From assembly GCA_002841685.1 (NCBI GenBank), contig PHAM01000072.1, forward strand, positions 1-7,328: a DNA stretch of 7,328 nt, read 5' to 3'. Shown here piece after piece: positions 190 through 7,249 of the stretch. A program made the position numbers and the translations under genes. The stretch's first letter is position 1. Every line of letters starts with the position of its first letter. The DNA is from Elusimicrobia bacterium HGW-Elusimicrobia-2. Lineage in GTDB: Bacteria; CG03. Under the pieces are notes generated by a model. That model searched no databases. It had not been told where the DNA came from and worked only from the letters and a program-made list of their open reading frames with translations.

Positions 190-1182
190 ATGGCAAAGAT
201 TTATTATGACAAGGATGCAAGTTTGTCGGCGTTGAAAGGTAAAACTGTGGCTGTCATAGGTTACGGTTCTCAGGGGCACGCGCAGGCGCAGAATCTCAGG
301 GATTCGGGCGTTAACGTCATCGTCGCTGACCTGCCCGGTTCCGACAATTTTGAACAGGCAAAGAAAGACGGCTTCAAACCCGTCACCTGCGCGGAAGCGG
401 TCAAAAAAGCTTTCTGGGTGCAGATGCTCGTTCCCGACGAGCTCCAGGCTATAATTTATAAAAACGATGTTGAGCCCAATTTAAAAAAAGGTATGGTTCT
501 GGGTTTTTCCCACGGATTCAACATACGCTTCGGCCAGATAAAGCCGCCGAAAACGATTGATGTCGTGATGGTCGCCCCGAAAGGGCCCGGTCATCTTGTC
601 AGGGATGTGTATGCCGCCGGCGGCGGCGTGCCGAATCTCATAGCCGTTCATCAGAACGTGTCCAAAAAAGCCAAACAGCTGGCGCTGGCCTATTCAAAAG
701 GGATAGGCGGCACCCGTGCCGGTACACTGGAGACGACTTTTTCAGAAGAGACGGAAACGGATCTTTTCGGCGAGCAGGTCGTCCTCTGCGGCGGCGTTGT
801 GGAGCTGGTCAAGGCCGGATTTGAGACTCTCGTTGAGGCGGGGTACCAGCCGGAGATCGCATATTTTGAATGTTTCCACGAGCTCAAGCTCATCGTCGAT
901 CTTATGCACACGAAAGGCATAGGCTGGATGAACTATTCCATCTCCGACACCGCCGAATACGGCGAATATTCAAGAGGCCCGAGGATAATAACTGACGAGA
1001 CGAAGAAAGAGATGAAAAAGATCCTCAGGGAAATCGTCTCCGGCGAATTCGCGAAAGAATGGCTGCTTGAAAACAGAGTCGGCCGTCCCGTGTTCAATCA
1101 GGCGAGAAAGGAAAGCTTTGAGCTTAAGATAGAGGAAGTGGGCGGCAAACTCCGAAAGATGATGCGCTGGCTGAAAAAATAG
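190..1182 (+). CDS. ilvC: Ketol-acid reductoisomerase, class I, probably NADH-preferring
   Basis: Converts 2-acetolactate (or 2-aceto-2-hydroxybutyrate) to the dihydroxy acid by Mg-dependent alkyl migration and NAD(P)H reduction. It is a cytosolic step of valine, leucine and isoleucine synthesis. At 330 residues it has the usual class I (short) length. The Rossmann motif GYGSQG is at 24-29, the catalytic His at 108 (SHGF), and the metal and substrate residues D191, E195, E227, E231 and S252 are all present. The start is set by GGAGG at 178-182, seven bases before the ATG. The cofactor loop is unusual: after strand beta-2 it reads ADLPGSDNF (46-54), with D47 at the strand end, L48 where NADPH enzymes usually have Arg, and N53 where they usually have Ser. 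Acidic residues here are typical of NADH-using enzymes, so NADH preference is inferred. It is the first gene of the operon. The identity is secure; the cofactor is not. Confidence 0.97.
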
Positions 1183-1188
1183 ATCCGG

Positions 1189-1830
1189 ATGCGGGTTTCA
1201 AAAGAAGTCATACCGGTGCTGCTGCCGCTGGGCGCCGTTTTCGCGGTTTTGGTTGTGCCTCTGTTTCTGCCGGTGAAAAAGGAGCTGCTGTCAAGCTGGA
1301 ACTTTTACGCGGCGGCGCTTGTTTTTGCCGTCGCTTTGTGGACGCTGTGGTTTTTCAGGGATCCCAATATAAAAGTCAACGCCTCAGACGCGCACATCCT
1401 CTCTCCGGCTTCCGGACGCGTGATGTCCATCGAGGAAACAGACCGTGGTACAAAAGTTGTGCGGATTTTTATGAATGTGTGCAGCTACCACATCCAGCGC
1501 GCGCCTTACGGCGGCACGGTTAGGATGATAACTTATACGCACGGAAGTTTTATCAATGCCGCGAAGAGCGACGCGCACATCAAAAACGAGAGAAACGAAG
1601 TGCTGTTTGACACTCCCCGCGGCGTCATAGCCGTCACGCAGATCGTCGGTTCCATAGCCCGGCGGATACTCTGCTGGAAAAAAGAGGGTGAGAAGATCTC
1701 GCAGGGCGAAAAGTTCGGCATGATAAAGTTCGGCTCCCAGGTGGATTGCGAATTCCCCGCTTCGTGCGAAGTGCTGGTGAAGGAGCGCGACAGCCTTGAC
1801 TGCGCGCGTTCGGTGATAGCGAAATGGTGA
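1189..1830 (+). CDS. psd: Phosphatidylserine decarboxylase proenzyme, short type
   Basis: Pyruvoyl-dependent enzyme that decarboxylates phosphatidylserine to phosphatidylethanolamine at the membrane. Two hydrophobic stretches (about 7-28 and 38-56) lead to the family motif FFRDP (55-59). The His motif YHIQRAP is at 100-106, NERNEV at 133-138, and the self-cleavage site is in KFGSQVD. Cleavage between G182 and S183 would give a beta chain of 182 residues and an alpha chain of 31 residues whose Ser becomes the pyruvoyl group. At 213 residues it matches the short (archaeal/rhizobial) form. The usual SPADG motif reads SPASG, so the conserved Asp of the proposed Asp-His-Ser processing triad is S75. 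The gene begins six bases after the ilvC stop with only a weak ribosome site, so translation probably depends on ilvC. It overlaps pssA, whose product makes its substrate. The family assignment is firm; full self-processing is less certain because of S75. Confidence 0.93.
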   Translation: MRVSKEVIPVLLPLGAVFAVLVVPLFLPVKKELLSSWNFYAAALVFAVALWTLWFFRDPNIKVNASDAHILSPASGRVMSIEETDRGTKVVRIFMNVCSYHIQRAPYGGTVRMITYTHGSFINAAKSDAHIKNERNEVLFDTPRGVIAVTQIVGSIARRILCWKKEGEKISQGEKFGMIKFGSQVDCEFPASCEVLVKERDSLDCARSVIAKW

Positions 1831-2585
1831 TCAAAAGATTCAGGACGGGGATATATCTTCCCAGCGTTTTCACGGCGATCAATATCGGCTGCGGTTTTAT
1901 GTCGGTTATCTTCGCCCTTCAGGAGAAATATTCTCTGGCCGCCTGGCTCATCGTTATAGGATGGGTGATGGATTCCATGGATGGTCATCTGGCTCGCATG
2001 ACAAACACCGGCTCCAAATTCGGTGTGGAGTTTGACAGCATAGCGGATATGGTTTCTTTCGGCATGGCCCCGGCTCTGCTTGTGTGGATATACTACCTCA
2101 AGGATTTTCGCCTCGGCTGGGCTGTCTGCCTTTTGTTTGTGCTGACCGCGGCGATCCGCCTGGCGCGTTTTAACACTTCCGCTTCCTCTGAAGAGAAATC
2201 GACTTATTTTGAGGGCCTTCCGTCACCGGCGGCCGCGGGAATACTGGCTGCTTTTGTTCTGCTGATGGAAATATACAAGGCGGATTCCCCAAAACGGAGT
2301 TTCAGGTTTCTTGTTGAAAGAGCGCCGCTTTTCGCTCACATCCTGCCGTTTATAATAATTCTTATCTCATTCCTGATGCTGACAAAACTGAGATACCCCC
2401 ACGGAACCAGATTCAAACTCACGGGTATGCTGCCTATGAGGGTTTTCATAATAACGATCGTGTGGCTGGTGCTTTTCGTGATGTATCCGGAAAGCATTAT
2501 ATCGTTGATGCTGATAGCCTATCTGCTCTACGGATTGCTGGATATTGTCATCAGGACAATCAGGATGAGGAAGGAAAGGTCCTGA
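1824..2585 (+). CDS. pssA: CDP-diacylglycerol-serine O-phosphatidyltransferase (PssA, CDP-alcohol phosphotransferase family)
   Basis: Integral membrane enzyme that transfers the phosphatidyl group from CDP-diacylglycerol to L-serine, giving phosphatidylserine for Psd. The CDP-alcohol phosphotransferase signature DGxxAR-x8-Gxxx-DxxxD is exact: D53, G54, A57, R58, G67, D71 and D75, preceded by D50. The PssA-specific blocks RLARFN (112-117) and FEGLPSPAAAG (129-139) separate it from PgsA and from choline enzymes. Several hydrophobic segments follow (about 12-31, 36-50, 78-94, 96-113, 171-187, 205-221 and 224-243), with a basic tail. At 253 residues it is the Bacillus/archaeal-like type, unrelated to the PLD-like PssA of E. 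coli. The ATG overlaps the psd stop by seven bases and has no clear Shine-Dalgarno. GTG at 1827 would give the classic 4-base GTGA overlap and is an equally good start. Either implies translational coupling with psd. Confidence 0.94.
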   Translation: MVIKRFRTGIYLPSVFTAINIGCGFMSVIFALQEKYSLAAWLIVIGWVMDSMDGHLARMTNTGSKFGVEFDSIADMVSFGMAPALLVWIYYLKDFRLGWAVCLLFVLTAAIRLARFNTSASSEEKSTYFEGLPSPAAAGILAAFVLLMEIYKADSPKRSFRFLVERAPLFAHILPFIIILISFLMLTKLRYPHGTRFKLTGMLPMRVFIITIVWLVLFVMYPESIISLMLIAYLLYGLLDIVIRTIRMRKERS

Positions 2586-4090
2586 TGTCCGGAAAAATAA
2601 TCATATTTGACACGACTCTGCGCGACGGCGAGCAGTCACCGGGGGCGTCGCTTACGAGCGACCAGAAACTCATAATAGCGCGCGAGCTCGAGAAGATGAA
2701 AGTGGATGTTATAGAGGCCGGTTTCGCCATATCCTCACCCGACGATTATAAGAGCATAGAAAGGATTTCATCCGTGATGAAGAATGTGACGGTGTGTTCG
2801 CTCGCGCGGGCCGTTGAAAAAGATATCACCGCCGCCGCCGGCGCCCTTTCCAGCGCCCGGCATAAACGCATACACACTTTTATTGCCACCTCTCCCGTGC
2901 ACATGAAATACAAGCTCAGAATGTCAAAAGCCGAGGTTGTTTCAAATGCCGTGGGAGCGGTAAAACTGGCGCGCGGATATTGCGATGAGGTGGAATTCTC
3001 CTGCGAGGACGCCACCAGGAGCGATAAAAAATTCCTCCGCGAAATAATTGAAAAAGTCATATCCGCCGGAGCCGGTATAATAAACATTCCCGATACCGTT
3101 GGTTATGCCTATCCGGAAGAGATGGGAAAACTCATAAGCTACCTTCTGTCCAATGTGAAGAATTCGCACAAAGCCGTTTTTTCGGTGCACTGCCACAATG
3201 ACCTGGGCCTGGGCACTGCAAATTCCCTGGCGGCGGTTATCGCCGGAGCCGGCCAGGTGGAATGCACTATAAACGGCCTGGGCGAACGCGCCGGGAACGC
3301 GGCTCTGGAAGAAATAGTCATGGCCCTGAAAGTGCGTTTCCCGAAGATAAAAACCGGCGTTGACACTCACGCGATAGCGCGCGTGTCGGGGATGGTCTCG
3401 CACATGACCGGCATCGCCGTTCAGCCGAATAAAGCCGTTGTCGGAGCAAATGCTTTCGCCCATGAGGCCGGCATCCATCAGGACGGCGTGCTCAAAAAAG
3501 CCCAGACATACGAGATAATGAAGCCGGAAGATGTGGGGATATCGGGTTCGCTTCTCGTTCTCGGAAAGCATTCCGGCCGCGCGGCCCTGGATAAAAAGCT
3601 GAAAGATCTCGGTTTTCAGATCGGAAAAGACAAACTTAATGAGATATTTGTCGAGTTTAAAAAGCTGGCCGACAAAAAGAAAAAGGTTTATGACGAAGAT
3701 ATAATAGCGCTCATAGAAAAGGACATGGGCAGAAGAGACGGCTTTGAGCTGAAAAATTTTGAGGTGCACACCACCCCGTCCGGCTCAAAGGGAAAGGTTA
3801 CGCTCAAAAAAGGCGGAAAGATATTCAGGAGTGAGGCCTCCGGCGACGGGCCCGTCGACAGCGTGCTCAAGGCGGTGGAGGCGGTCAGCGGCAGGAAGGG
3901 GAAACTCACTGATTATCATGTGAAGTCCATTACCGTAGGAAAAGACGCGCAGGGCGAGGTGCGGCTCCGGGCGGCTTTCGGAAAAAAAGTGTTCGCGGGC
4001 GTCTCATCATCCACGGATATAATAGAGGCATCCATACTGGCATACCTTTCCGCTCTTAACAAACTTGAATTGCGGAATATCAAAGGATGA
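2585..4090 (+). CDS. leuA: 2-isopropylmalate synthase
   Basis: Condenses acetyl-CoA with 2-ketoisovalerate to 2-isopropylmalate, the committed and usually leucine-inhibited step of leucine synthesis. The TIM-barrel domain carries FDTTLRDGEQSPG (8-20), HCHNDLGLGTANS (202-214) and GERAGNAALEE (233-243). The metal ligands D14, H202, H204 and N238 are visible. GANAFAHEAGIHQDG (287-301) and GKHSGRAAL (327-335) mark the linker subdomains. Residues from about 390 to the end form the LeuA dimer regulatory domain that binds leucine, so feedback control is likely. At 501 residues it is of normal bacterial length. The start chosen is the ATG at 2585, which shares one base with the pssA stop (TGATG) and follows an AGGAAGGAAAGG purine stretch. 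The same frame is open upstream to 2462, but that part lies inside pssA and is not family-like. The common EFSPEDA block reads EFSCEDA (137-143), a minor change. Homocitrate or citramalate synthase is less likely given leuCDB next door. Confidence 0.96.
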   Translation: MSGKIIIFDTTLRDGEQSPGASLTSDQKLIIARELEKMKVDVIEAGFAISSPDDYKSIERISSVMKNVTVCSLARAVEKDITAAAGALSSARHKRIHTFIATSPVHMKYKLRMSKAEVVSNAVGAVKLARGYCDEVEFSCEDATRSDKKFLREIIEKVISAGAGIINIPDTVGYAYPEEMGKLISYLLSNVKNSHKAVFSVHCHNDLGLGTANSLAAVIAGAGQVECTINGLGERAGNAALEEIVMALKVRFPKIKTGVDTHAIARVSGMVSHMTGIAVQPNKAVVGANAFAHEAGIHQDGVLKKAQTYEIMKPEDVGISGSLLVLGKHSGRAALDKKLKDLGFQIGKDKLNEIFVEFKKLADKKKKVYDEDIIALIEKDMGRRDGFELKNFEVHTTPSGSKGKVTLKKGGKIFRSEASGDGPVDSVLKAVEAVSGRKGKLTDYHVKSITVGKDAQGEVRLRAAFGKKVFAGVSSSTDIIEASILAYLSALNKLELRNIKG

Positions 4091-4093
4091 TCT

Positions 4094-5332
4094 ATGAATT
4101 ACGTTGAAAACATTCTATCGCACGCCTCGGGAAGGAAAAGCACCTCCGCCGGGGAATATATAGAGGCCCGCTGCGACACGGTTCTGATGAACGATGTGAC
4201 GGGGCCTTTGGCGGTGAAAGAATTCCTCAAAAGAGGAAAGAAGATAAAGAACCCCGGCTCGGTTGTGATCGTCTGCGATCACTTCACGCCCAATAAAGAC
4301 ATCAAATCCGCTGAAAATGTGAAATTCCTGAGGGATTTCGCTAAAAAGCAGAAGATAAGATTTTTTGAGATCGGCGACGGCGGCGTCGAGCATGTCATTC
4401 TGCCGGAGAAAGGAATCGTCAAGCCCGGCGACGTTGTCATAGGCGCGGATTCTCACACCTGCACATACGGGGCGCTGGGCGCTTTTTCCACAGGCGTCGG
4501 TTCCACCGATGCGGCTTTCGCCATGCTCACCGGAAAGATCTGGTTCATGGTGCCGGAGGTCATGGAATTTGTTTACAGCGGAAAAAAAGGAAAATTCATA
4601 ACAGGCAAGGATCTTATTCTCCTGACCATCGGGAAGATAGGCGTAAACGGCGCGAATTACAAAGCCATGAAATTCGCGGGGCCGGTCATACGCGCTCTTT
4701 CAATGGATGAGAGATTCACCATGTGCAACATGGCCATTGAGGCCGGCGGAAAAGCCGGTTTTGTCGTGCCTGATAAAAAAACCGCGGAGTATATTAAGGG
4801 GCGTCCGGGTAAGAAGGCCAGGGTTTTCGCCGACGGAGCTTCGGCTCAGACACTCAAAATGGATATAAGCTCCGTTAAGCCTCTTGTCGCCGCGCCGCAT
4901 CTTCCCGATAAAGTCGGGCCCGCCGCGAAAATGAATAAAGTGAAAATAGACCAGGCCGTCATAGGTTCCTGCACAAACGGCAGGATAAGCGATTTCGCGC
5001 AGGCGGCGAAGATAATGAAAGGCAGGAAGATAAGCGCCGGATTGCGCTGTATAATCCTGCCCGGCAGTCAGCAAGTCTATGCCGAGGCCTTGAAGAAAGG
5101 TTACATAGAGACATTTCTGAAAGCGGGATGCGTTATAGCGCCGCCCACCTGCGGGCCGTGCCTGGGCGGCCACATGGGGATACTCGCCGGCGGAGAAACG
5201 GCGATATCCACGACCAACAGGAATTTTGTCGGCAGGATGGGGGCCACCAGCTCCCGTGTGTATCTTGCCTCGCCCTACACGGCGGCCGCCTCGGCGCTCA
5301 GGGGGCGTATAATATCGCCGGAACAGCTTTAG
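4094..5332 (+). CDS. leuC: 3-isopropylmalate dehydratase large subunit
   Basis: Large subunit of the iron-sulfur isomerase that interconverts 2- and 3-isopropylmalate, working with LeuD. It belongs to the aconitase family. The three 4Fe-4S ligands are visible: C293 in SCTNGR and C353 and C356 in CGPCLGGH. The family blocks GADSHTCTYGALGAFSTGVGS (118-137) and NRNFVGRMG (375-383) are intact. At 412 residues it is the short, archaeal-like LeuC2/HacA type rather than the roughly 466-residue enterobacterial type. AAAGGA at 4082-4087, six bases ahead, supports the ATG. It begins three bases after the leuA stop. In archaea this family also includes homoaconitases, but leuA and leuB on either side make isopropylmalate the expected substrate. 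The fold and cluster are certain and the substrate is likely. Confidence 0.95.
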   Translation: MNYVENILSHASGRKSTSAGEYIEARCDTVLMNDVTGPLAVKEFLKRGKKIKNPGSVVIVCDHFTPNKDIKSAENVKFLRDFAKKQKIRFFEIGDGGVEHVILPEKGIVKPGDVVIGADSHTCTYGALGAFSTGVGSTDAAFAMLTGKIWFMVPEVMEFVYSGKKGKFITGKDLILLTIGKIGVNGANYKAMKFAGPVIRALSMDERFTMCNMAIEAGGKAGFVVPDKKTAEYIKGRPGKKARVFADGASAQTLKMDISSVKPLVAAPHLPDKVGPAAKMNKVKIDQAVIGSCTNGRISDFAQAAKIMKGRKISAGLRCIILPGSQQVYAEALKKGYIETFLKAGCVIAPPTCGPCLGGHMGILAGGETAISTTNRNFVGRMGATSSRVYLASPYTAAASALRGRIISPEQL

Positions 5333-5352: not shown

Positions 5353-5847
5353 ATGAAAAATATTATCAAAGGCCGCGCTTATGTCGTCGGGGATTCGGTA
5401 GATACGGATGTGATAATACCGGCGCGGTTTCTCACGACGGACAATGCGAATGAACTGGCCGCGCACTGTATGGAGGACCTGGATAAAGATTTCAGCAAAA
5501 AGGTGAAGACGGGCGATATCATCGTCGCCGGAGACAACTTCGGCTGCGGCTCATCGCGCGAACACGCGCCCATAGCCATAAAGGCATCGGGCATCTCGGC
5601 CGTTATAGCCAAATCCTTCGCGCGTATTTTTCTGCGCAACTGCATAAACATAGGCCTCATGGTTTTTGTCTGTGACATGAAAAAAGACACCCGCCCGGGC
5701 GATGAGATAACGGTTGACATGCAGAAGGGCGAGATCGCCAACGCCCGCACGAAAAAGATTTATCAGGTGAAGCCCGTCCCGGAATTCATAAAGAAAATAG
5801 TGTCCTCCGGCGGCCTTCTGAATTATGCCGTTCAAAGGAGAAAATGA
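5353..5847 (+). CDS. leuD: 3-isopropylmalate dehydratase small subunit
   Basis: Small (swivel-domain) subunit that completes the isopropylmalate isomerase active site with LeuC. It shows [11 protein letters not shown] (17-27), with the loop that shapes substrate choice, HCMEDLD (38-44), [12 protein letters not shown] (62-73) and [11 protein letters not shown] (83-93). At 164 residues it is the short archaeal-like form, matching the short LeuC, rather than the roughly 200-residue enterobacterial form. In this family the usual loop is often ARYL; here it is ARFL, a mild change. The gene starts 20 bases after the leuC stop, and GGAGAG at 5344-5349 serves as its ribosome site. Its TGA stop is one base before the leuB ATG, and its final codons contain the leuB Shine-Dalgarno, so the two are probably coupled. 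Confidence 0.95.
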
Positions 5848-5848
5848 G

Positions 5849-6904
5849 ATGAAGAAACACAAGATAGCGGTTATAGGCGGAGACGGAACAGGGCCTGAAG
5901 TTGTAGCTGAAGGTCTGAAAGTCCTTAAAGCGGCCTCAAAAAAGTTCGGCTTTGAGTATGAGACGACAATGCTGGACTGGGGCGGCGAGAGATATATGAA
6001 GACAGGCAAAATGATGCCTGACGACGGGATAGAAACGCTGAAAAAATTTGACGCCATATATCTGGGCGCTGTTGGACATCCGGAAGTGAAACCCGGGATT
6101 CTTGAAAAAGGACTGCTGCTTCGCATGAGGTTTGAGCTTGAGCAATATATTAATCTGCGGCCAGTGAAACTTTATCCCGGCGTGTGGACGCCCATAAAAG
6201 ACAAAGGCCCGGATGAGATAGACTATGTTGTCGTGAGGGAAAACAACGAGGGGCTCTACACGGGCATGGGCGAGTTCAAAAACAAGGGAACAAAAGATGA
6301 AATCGCTCTGCAAACATCATACAATACGAGAGCGGGGGTTGAACGGTGCATAAGATACGCTTTTGAATTCACCAGAAAAAGAAACAAGAGAAAACAGCTC
6401 ACGCTCTGCGGAAAGACAAATGTTCTCACCTACGCGTGGGATCTATGGGAAAGGACTTTCTATGAGGTCGCCAAGGAATACAGCGATATAAAAACAGATT
6501 ATACGCATGTTGACGCCACCTGTATGTGGATGGTGAAAAACCCGGAATGGTTTGACGTTATCGTCACGGACAACATGTTCGGCGACATAATCACCGATCT
6601 CGCGGCGATGACGCAGGGCGGAATGGGAATCGCCGCCGGAGGAAACATTAATCCGGAGGGCGTGTCCATGTTCGAGCCCATAGGCGGTTCCGCGCCCAAA
6701 TACACGGGTAAAAATGTGATCAATCCACTGGCCGCGATATGTTCGCTCGGGATGCTGCTTTCAAACATCGGCGAAGAAGAAGCCGCGGTCGCCGTTGAAA
6801 AAGCGGTGATGAGGGCCACGGCCGGAAAGATCAAATCCATGTCGGCAGGCAAAATGGGCATGGGCACGACGGAAGTCGGCGATTACATAGCAAGCCTCAT
6901 CTGA
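5849..6904 (+). CDS. leuB: 3-isopropylmalate dehydrogenase (isocitrate/isopropylmalate dehydrogenase family), probably NADP+-using
   Basis: Expected to oxidise and decarboxylate 3-isopropylmalate to 2-ketoisocaproate. The substrate arginines R94 and R104 (in NLRP) and R130, catalytic Y137 and K189, and metal ligands D222, D246 and D250 are all visible in family order. GGDGTGPEV is at 10-18. Classic LeuB has RELTGGIYFG; this one has RENNEGLYTG, as in archaeal LeuB, IDH and tartrate/malate dehydrogenases. The nucleotide motif EPVHGSAPD is changed to EPIGGSAPKY (276-285). The usual His is Gly and the NAD-selecting Asp is Lys followed by Tyr, as in NADP-dependent E. coli isocitrate dehydrogenase. 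NADP+ preference is therefore inferred. The start at 5849 is set by AAAGGAG (5834-5840) eight bases upstream; an in-frame ATG at 5825 lies inside leuD and has no ribosome site. At 351 residues it has normal length. The LeuB role rests mainly on the operon; isocitrate, malate or tartrate activity cannot be excluded from sequence. Confidence 0.88.
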   Translation: MKKHKIAVIGGDGTGPEVVAEGLKVLKAASKKFGFEYETTMLDWGGERYMKTGKMMPDDGIETLKKFDAIYLGAVGHPEVKPGILEKGLLLRMRFELEQYINLRPVKLYPGVWTPIKDKGPDEIDYVVVRENNEGLYTGMGEFKNKGTKDEIALQTSYNTRAGVERCIRYAFEFTRKRNKRKQLTLCGKTNVLTYAWDLWERTFYEVAKEYSDIKTDYTHVDATCMWMVKNPEWFDVIVTDNMFGDIITDLAAMTQGGMGIAAGGNINPEGVSMFEPIGGSAPKYTGKNVINPLAAICSLGMLLSNIGEEEAAVAVEKAVMRATAGKIKSMSAGKMGMGTTEVGDYIASLI

Positions 6905-6988: not shown

Positions 6989-7249
6989 ATGACGACACTC
7001 ACAGCCACGGATGCCCGCCGCGAGTTTTTTGATATTATCAGCGGCGCGGCAAAAAGCCACAAAATATACAGGATCAGTCACCGCAAGGGCGCGACGGTGC
7101 TTATGTCCGAAGAGGACTATGAAAGCCTGATAGAATCGCTGGAGCTTCTTTCTATTCCCGGCTTCAGGGCGAGTATGAAAAAGTCTGTTCGCCAAATGAA
7201 AAAAGGCGAGACATTTTCCTTTGAAGAGGTGTTATATGCAACGCATTAA
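6989..7249 (+). CDS. Antitoxin, Phd/YefM family
   Basis: An 86-residue protein of the YefM/Phd antitoxin family, which binds DNA through an N-terminal dimer fold and neutralises a RelE-like Txe/YoeB RNase through its C-terminal part. The opening TTLTATDARREFFDIIS (2-18), the basic ISHRKGATVLMSEEDYESL (29-47) and the ELLSIPG block (52-58) are typical of the subgroup that pairs with Txe-type toxins. The C-terminal tail is charged, as expected for a flexible toxin-binding segment. AAGGGAGG (6975-6982), six bases ahead, is a strong ribosome site. The gene has its own promoter and a TGTACA operator, so autoregulation is expected. The partner toxin should overlap the 3' end, but only broken frames are found there. 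It is probably an orphan antitoxin that could now act only as a DNA-binding repressor or as protection against related toxins. Confidence 0.9.
   Translation: MTTLTATDARREFFDIISGAAKSHKIYRISHRKGATVLMSEEDYESLIESLELLSIPGFRASMKKSVRQMKKGETFSFEEVLYATH

Follow-up and report, generated by a model that had tools for sequence, protein, structure and literature searches.

A class I ketol-acid reductoisomerase with a predicted NADH-type cofactor loop, and a possible opposite change in LeuB, in a leucine operon of an Elusimicrobia bacterium

The loop between strand beta2 and helix alphaB is the only part of ketol-acid reductoisomerases (KARIs) that contacts the adenosine 2' group of the cofactor, and it is therefore the proper place to read cofactor preference; the 2'-phosphate is bound by an Arg at position 2 of the loop and by Ser residues at its positions 5 and 7 (PMC5940873). 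The kinetic reference used in this study is the loop table of that paper (Table 3), which compiles published KARI values. NADPH-preferring loops in the table include LRPGSRN, LRKGSNS, LREGSSS and LEREGNS; bispecific loops are LERQGDS, LEREGKS, LDDKSPH and one 12-residue loop; and NADH-preferring loops are DIPSSEN (74-fold), ETEILGGNKNPS (152-fold), LPEWDKAT and QLEGDAY. DIPSSEN is the loop of the Thermacetogenium phaeum enzyme (Tp-KARI), which has a KM(NADH) of <1 uM and is 74 times as efficient with NADH as with NADPH (values of Brinkmann-Chen et al. 2014, as given in PMC5940873), and ETEILGGNKNPS that of an enzyme from an uncultured archaeon (Ua-KARI, PDB 4xdy). These two are the only natural loops in the table with an acidic residue at position 1; both enzymes prefer NADH, and no such loop occurs among the NADPH-preferring or bispecific enzymes. 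This is suggestive of a rule, resting on two table cases, by which an acidic first loop residue would predict NADH preference.

A pair of cofactor-discriminating residues is described for the superfamily that holds the isocitrate dehydrogenases (IDHs) and the 3-isopropylmalate dehydrogenases (IPMDHs, LeuB). In the IDHs, K344 together with Y345 is the classification criterion for NADP use, and K344D/Y345I converts the E. coli enzyme to NAD (PMC3521221). E. coli IPMDH was turned to NADP via K100R, A229T, D236R, L248M, D289K, I290Y, A296V and G337Y (Miller et al. 2006, as quoted in PMC5817062).

The window, i.e., the whole stretch of DNA analysed here, is an entire contig of 7,328 bases from a 1.78 Mb draft genome that is 96% complete. 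The following features were assigned:

190-1182, plus strand: ilvC, class I KARI of 330 aa, single copy in the genome (family models, alignment)
259-276, plus strand: Rossmann dinucleotide-binding glycine motif G24-Y-G-S-Q-G29 of IlvC (alignment)
328-351, plus strand: beta2-alphaB cofactor selectivity loop D47-L-P-G-S-D-N53 plus F54 of IlvC, predicted to be of the NADH type (translation, comparison, model)
1189-1830, plus strand: psd, phosphatidylserine decarboxylase family, between ilvC and the leu genes (family models)
1824-2585, plus strand: pssA, CDP-diacylglycerol-serine O-phosphatidyltransferase (family models)
2582-4090, plus strand: leuA, 2-isopropylmalate synthase with allosteric domain (family models)
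4094-5332, plus strand: leuC, isopropylmalate isomerase large subunit (family models)
5353-5847, plus strand: leuD, isopropylmalate isomerase small subunit (family models)
5849-6904, plus strand: leuB, 3-isopropylmalate dehydrogenase of the PRK03437 type, in a reading frame open from 5825 (family models, solved relatives)
6686-6727, plus strand: LeuB cofactor loop GSAPKYTGKNVINP with Lys284-Tyr285, a putative NADP-type pair (alignment, solved relatives)

The gene order ilvC, psd, pssA, leuA, leuC, leuD, leuB is kept in three related loci (L005, L007 and L008), of which L005 and L008 were labelled Elusimicrobia by their submitters. The leuA frame opens at 2462, and a start near 2582 is the better fit to the family models. 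The phospholipid genes psd and pssA (1189-2585) separate ilvC from leuA, in the same order in L007, and ilvC-psd-pssA recurs in L012 and L013. Directly after leuB, at 6989-7249, lies a gene for a Phd/YefM-type antitoxin (PF02604), and the contig stops before a full toxin gene. No Rfam match to a riboswitch or leader RNA was found within the 7,328-nt window.

IlvC is an intact, ordinary class I KARI. Its frame begins with ATG and matches the KARI models over the full length (NF004017, 537 bits, cut-off 336), with PF07991 (KARI_N) at residues 15-178 and a single PF01450 (KARI_C) at residues 184-327, the domain content that defines class I. IlvC has the Mg2+-binding and catalytic residues D191, E227 and E231, numbered as in PMC5940873 and PMC8615647, and also E195 and S252, which we take to be catalytic or metal-site residues as well; none of the five varies across an alignment of 34 sequences. 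Bases 328-351 (GACCTGCCCGGTTCCGACAATTTT) translate to DLPGSDNF, residues 47-54, so that the loop read at this place from the sequence alone is confirmed, with a loop length of 7; a frame or coordinate error behind it was excluded by rechecking the open reading frame and these bases. The 96% complete draft yielded no further KARI of the usual cofactor type.

In the AlphaFold model of IlvC (mean pLDDT 93.4), strand beta2 spans residues 42-46 and helix alphaB begins at residue 52, and in a Foldseek search with this model solved KARIs matched the whole chain, including 4xdy and 8k32, the latter solved with NADH. D47 is the first residue after beta2 in the model; if the Rossmann unit is numbered from T19 (its glycines being residues 24, 26 and 29 of IlvC), D47 becomes residue 29 of that unit, the place taken by the acidic residue in classical NAD-binding folds. 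In the model, D47 thus provides an acidic residue at the loop position that is predicted to face the adenosine 2' group, as expected of an NADH-type enzyme. Positions 2, 5 and 7 of the loop are L48, S51 and N53, i.e., the Arg is gone, the last Ser is replaced, and Ser51 is retained.

Compared at the loop level, the nearest table entry to DLPGSDN is the DIPSSEN of Tp-KARI, with only conservative or small changes (I/L, S/G and E/D). Both loops have seven residues with Asp first, a hydrophobic residue second, then Pro, Ser at position 5, an acidic residue at 6 and Asn at 7, and both have kept the Ser at position 5 while the Arg and the last Ser are gone; Tp-KARI belongs to another phylum and is the one of the two with measured kinetics. 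Ua-KARI likewise has an acidic first loop residue and the same fold (TM-score 0.94), but its loop has 12 residues instead of 7 and its identity to IlvC is ~50%. The canonical NADPH-dependent KARIs of Slackia exigua and spinach share the fold, the catalytic residues and the loop length of 7 with IlvC, whereas their loops read LR-E/K-GS-S/N-S, with Arg and two Ser on the 2'-phosphate, against D, L, S and N at positions 1, 2, 5 and 7 here. An alignment with known NADPH enzymes did not group DLPGSDN with LRPGSRN, LRKGSNS or LREGSSS, in line with what the sequence-only reading had supposed.

We consider it probable, at about 0.86, that IlvC is a class I KARI whose loop has changed to the NADH type and which reduces its substrates with NADH, a kinetic preference that we infer from the loop and the model. 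This had been proposed from the letters of the sequence, and it is supported by a loop nearly identical to the measured loop of Tp-KARI, by the placement of D47 and by conservation. The two free hydroxyls (2' and 3') of the NADH adenosine ribose would donate hydrogen bonds to D47, a role already suggested for this residue that fits its site right after beta2, and D47 would exclude the 2'-phosphate of NADPH; with Arg48 and the final Ser of the loop gone, ligands of the phosphate would be missing. With these contacts gained and these ligands lost, IlvC would therefore reduce acetolactate and acetohydroxybutyrate with hydride from NADH. The further proposal that D52 repels a phosphate is weak: D52 is not conserved, starts helix alphaB in the model, and is probably not a determinant. 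As the main determinant it was rejected, since position 6 varies among 95 acidic-loop relatives (P 28, D 16, E 15, A 11, K 10).

Some features of the loop run counter to NADH use. Ser51 is retained as in NADPH enzymes, yet it is also present in Tp-KARI. As the Hydrogenobaculum KARI (LDDKSPH) demonstrates, a loop with acidic residues can make the enzyme bispecific, and an IlvC that works with similar efficiency on NADH and NADPH, like the KARIs of Ignisphaera, Metallosphaera and Hydrogenobaculum, would be in keeping with Ser51 and with the bispecific enzymes that have an acid at loop position 2 or 3; it is nevertheless unlikely, as the bispecific enzymes of the table all have Leu at position 1, several with a loop Arg, and both enzymes with an acid at position 1 prefer NADH, 74- and 152-fold (PMC5940873, Table 3). 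An IlvC that still prefers NADPH, with the phosphate bound through S51, N53 and amides of the helix alphaB backbone, could point to the retained S51 and to the Meiothermus ruber KARI, which prefers NADPH with a loop ending in N at the position of N53, but is very improbable given a loop with no Arg or Lys left and two acidic residues, and given that no measured NADPH-preferring loop begins with D or E (PMC5940873, Table 3).

The predicted use of NADH by IlvC is also consistent with how the loop is conserved. Between the window and a congeneric genome (L085), 129 ilvC codons differ synonymously and 18 non-synonymously. Despite this synonymous drift, the four genomes of the genus all encode the same eight loop residues, and because these stay constant while several loop codons differ, the conservation goes beyond chance. 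Within the phylum, each of the 13 genomes with a readable loop has D or E as its first residue, counted in a 16-genome set that does not seem to include the loci labelled Endomicrobia and Elusimicrobia. The first loop residue is D or E as well in the class I KARIs of 35 of 120 other bacterial families (29%, from a sample that favours query-like sequences and is not a census), typically as E-L-x-G-T-x-N-Y. Natural NADH-preferring KARIs had been called rare; among environmental genomes, acidic loops of this kind are not. If sequence predicts function, the spread of acidic loops contradicts the published view that native NADH-utilising KARIs are enzymes of extremophiles.

Arg at loop position 2 is found in 0 of the 95 acidic loops versus 79 of 109 non-acidic relatives. 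Asn at position 7 (N53) occurs in 75 and Thr or Ser at position 5 (residue 51) in 86 of the 95 acidic-loop relatives, and by this comparison of sequences the two are conserved partners of the acidic first residue. A tree of 73 close relatives, built with the loop columns left out, shows nine changes to or from the acidic state, and well-supported branches require at least five of them. A telling pair, both from Elusimicrobiota, is L006 with EKEGSDN versus L009 with QREGSDN; several such close pairs offer material on how a cofactor switch evolves. IlvC would add to a known but little-measured kind of enzyme, the NADH-preferring class I KARI, for which the survey suggests a large pool of candidates, acidic-loop KARIs being common in uncultured bacterial phyla. 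A third loop type, VRxGGRG, with Val-Arg and without Ser, is present in five Elusimicrobiota loci (L019, L021, L031, L040 and L051), and the KARI of L067 has a beta2-alphaB loop of 15 residues (QRPPQKAAGPSAGGN), which exceeds the usual 6, 7 or 12.

The LeuB encoded in this operon scores above the curated cut-off of the IPMDH model NF002898 (519 bits, cut-off 393), its nearest solved relative is 1w0d, a 3-isopropylmalate dehydrogenase, and leuA, leuC and leuD adjoin leuB in the window and in related loci. Its substrate helix has Leu-Leu and not Ser-x-Asn, a difference that we take to distinguish IPMDHs from IDHs. The sole paralogue in the genome was rejected as a second LeuB, being of the isocitrate dehydrogenase type, with an isocitrate-type substrate motif and a gene beside aconitase. 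In place of the Asp-Ile pair of NAD-using IPMDHs, LeuB has Lys-Tyr, which bears on the cofactor and not on IPMDH membership. The cofactor loop is GSAPDIAG in solved LeuBs and GSAPKYAGKNVINP in the Thermus IDH 2d1c, presumably an NADP-dependent enzyme, and it is the latter that the GSAPKYTGKNVINP of LeuB matches, Lys-Tyr pair included. By sequence, LeuB thus carries the Lys-Tyr that is the mark of predicted NADP-dependent members of the IDH/IPMDH superfamily.

Among the changes quoted for the engineered E. coli IPMDH, only the equivalents of D289K and I290Y are clearly present in LeuB; opposite D236 it has Asn instead of Arg, and opposite A296 it has Ile. Of the further phosphate ligands in E. 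coli IDH, Arg292 (the D236 position) is thus matched by Asn in LeuB, and the region of Tyr391/Arg395 aligns ambiguously and has a conserved Lys-rich segment. The LeuB branch has its own conserved basic segment, KS.xAGKMG, near where IDH binds phosphate. LeuB is thus like the engineered enzyme in having Lys-Tyr at the D289-I290 positions, and unlike it in being natural, in having no equivalent of D236R and in having a branch-specific basic motif in place of the G337 segment (changes as quoted from Miller et al. 2006 in PMC5817062). Because the other engineered positions are unmatched, NADP use by LeuB is less certain than NADH use by IlvC.

The association between the two enzymes was examined across genomes with a readable LeuB. 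A Lys-Tyr LeuB is present in 32 of 41 genomes with an acidic KARI versus 13 of 38 with a non-acidic one (Fisher p = 1e-4, ancestry not accounted for). For a phylogenetic test of the association, branches with good support offered no more than 3-4 independent pairs, and common ancestry may be the source of the association. In cis, 13 loci, the window included, have an acidic KARI with a LeuB in reach, and 12 of these 13 have a basic residue at the first pair position. In two Dehalococcoidia loci (L060 and L078) Arg-Arg or Lys-Arg takes the place of Asp-Ile, in a LeuB of the classical branch, ~36-38% identical, within an ilvC-leuACDB operon; a basic pair in a different LeuB branch hints at a second origin. 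A third Dehalococcoidia locus (L079) has a classical-branch LeuB with Arg-Arg next to a KARI with a Ser-Arg loop, again in an ilvC-leuACDB operon.

NADP+ use by LeuB would extend the explanation given for IlvC, is held at lower confidence and lies outside the figure given above. We regard as tentative, at somewhat short of even odds, a reciprocal swap in which KARI exchanged NADPH for NADH and LeuB exchanged NAD+ for NADP+; one hydride per leucine would then pass from NADH to NADP+, and the Lys-Tyr LeuBs would be natural NADP-dependent IPMDHs. Such enzymes are reportedly held by Dean and colleagues not to exist. If LeuB uses NADP+, it would return NADPH by oxidative decarboxylation, the driving step, and leucine synthesis would then be a small transhydrogenation that spends NADH and returns NADPH. 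It is possible, though rather doubtful, that Lys-Tyr does not confer NADP dependence and is a lineage mark of the branch, LeuB being NAD-dependent or bispecific. The few clear equivalents among the engineered changes (D289K and I290Y, with Asn at D236 and Ile at A296; list as quoted in PMC5817062) and the 13 genomes that combine Lys-Tyr with a non-acidic KARI loop point that way, whereas the standing of K344/Y345 as an NADP criterion in IDHs (PMC3521221), the match to GSAPKYAGKNVINP of 2d1c and the basic KS.xAGKMG segment near the IDH phosphate site argue against it.

Returning to the proposed swap, a search of the 96% complete draft did not find zwf (glucose-6-phosphate dehydrogenase), PntB or COX1 (haem-copper oxidase), and a search for NfnB/GltA-like proteins gave only matches below the cut-off. 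The apparent absence of zwf, PntB and COX1 fits an anaerobe with few classical NADPH sources, which favours NADH use by IlvC as well; transhydrogenation by the leucine route would be useful to such a host, though it may have other sources of NADPH. An NADP-dependent LeuB would make the operon a natural exception to the view that IPMDH is tied to NAD, and a biosynthetic route of transhydrogenation. The paired change in LeuB is likely the more surprising part to specialists, as opposite swaps in one operon would be unusual. The Lys-Tyr branch of LeuB (PRK03437 type) is large and extends across many bacterial families; within it, the pair is Ala-Phe in L014 and Asp-Phe in L307, both from genomes with acidic KARI loops.
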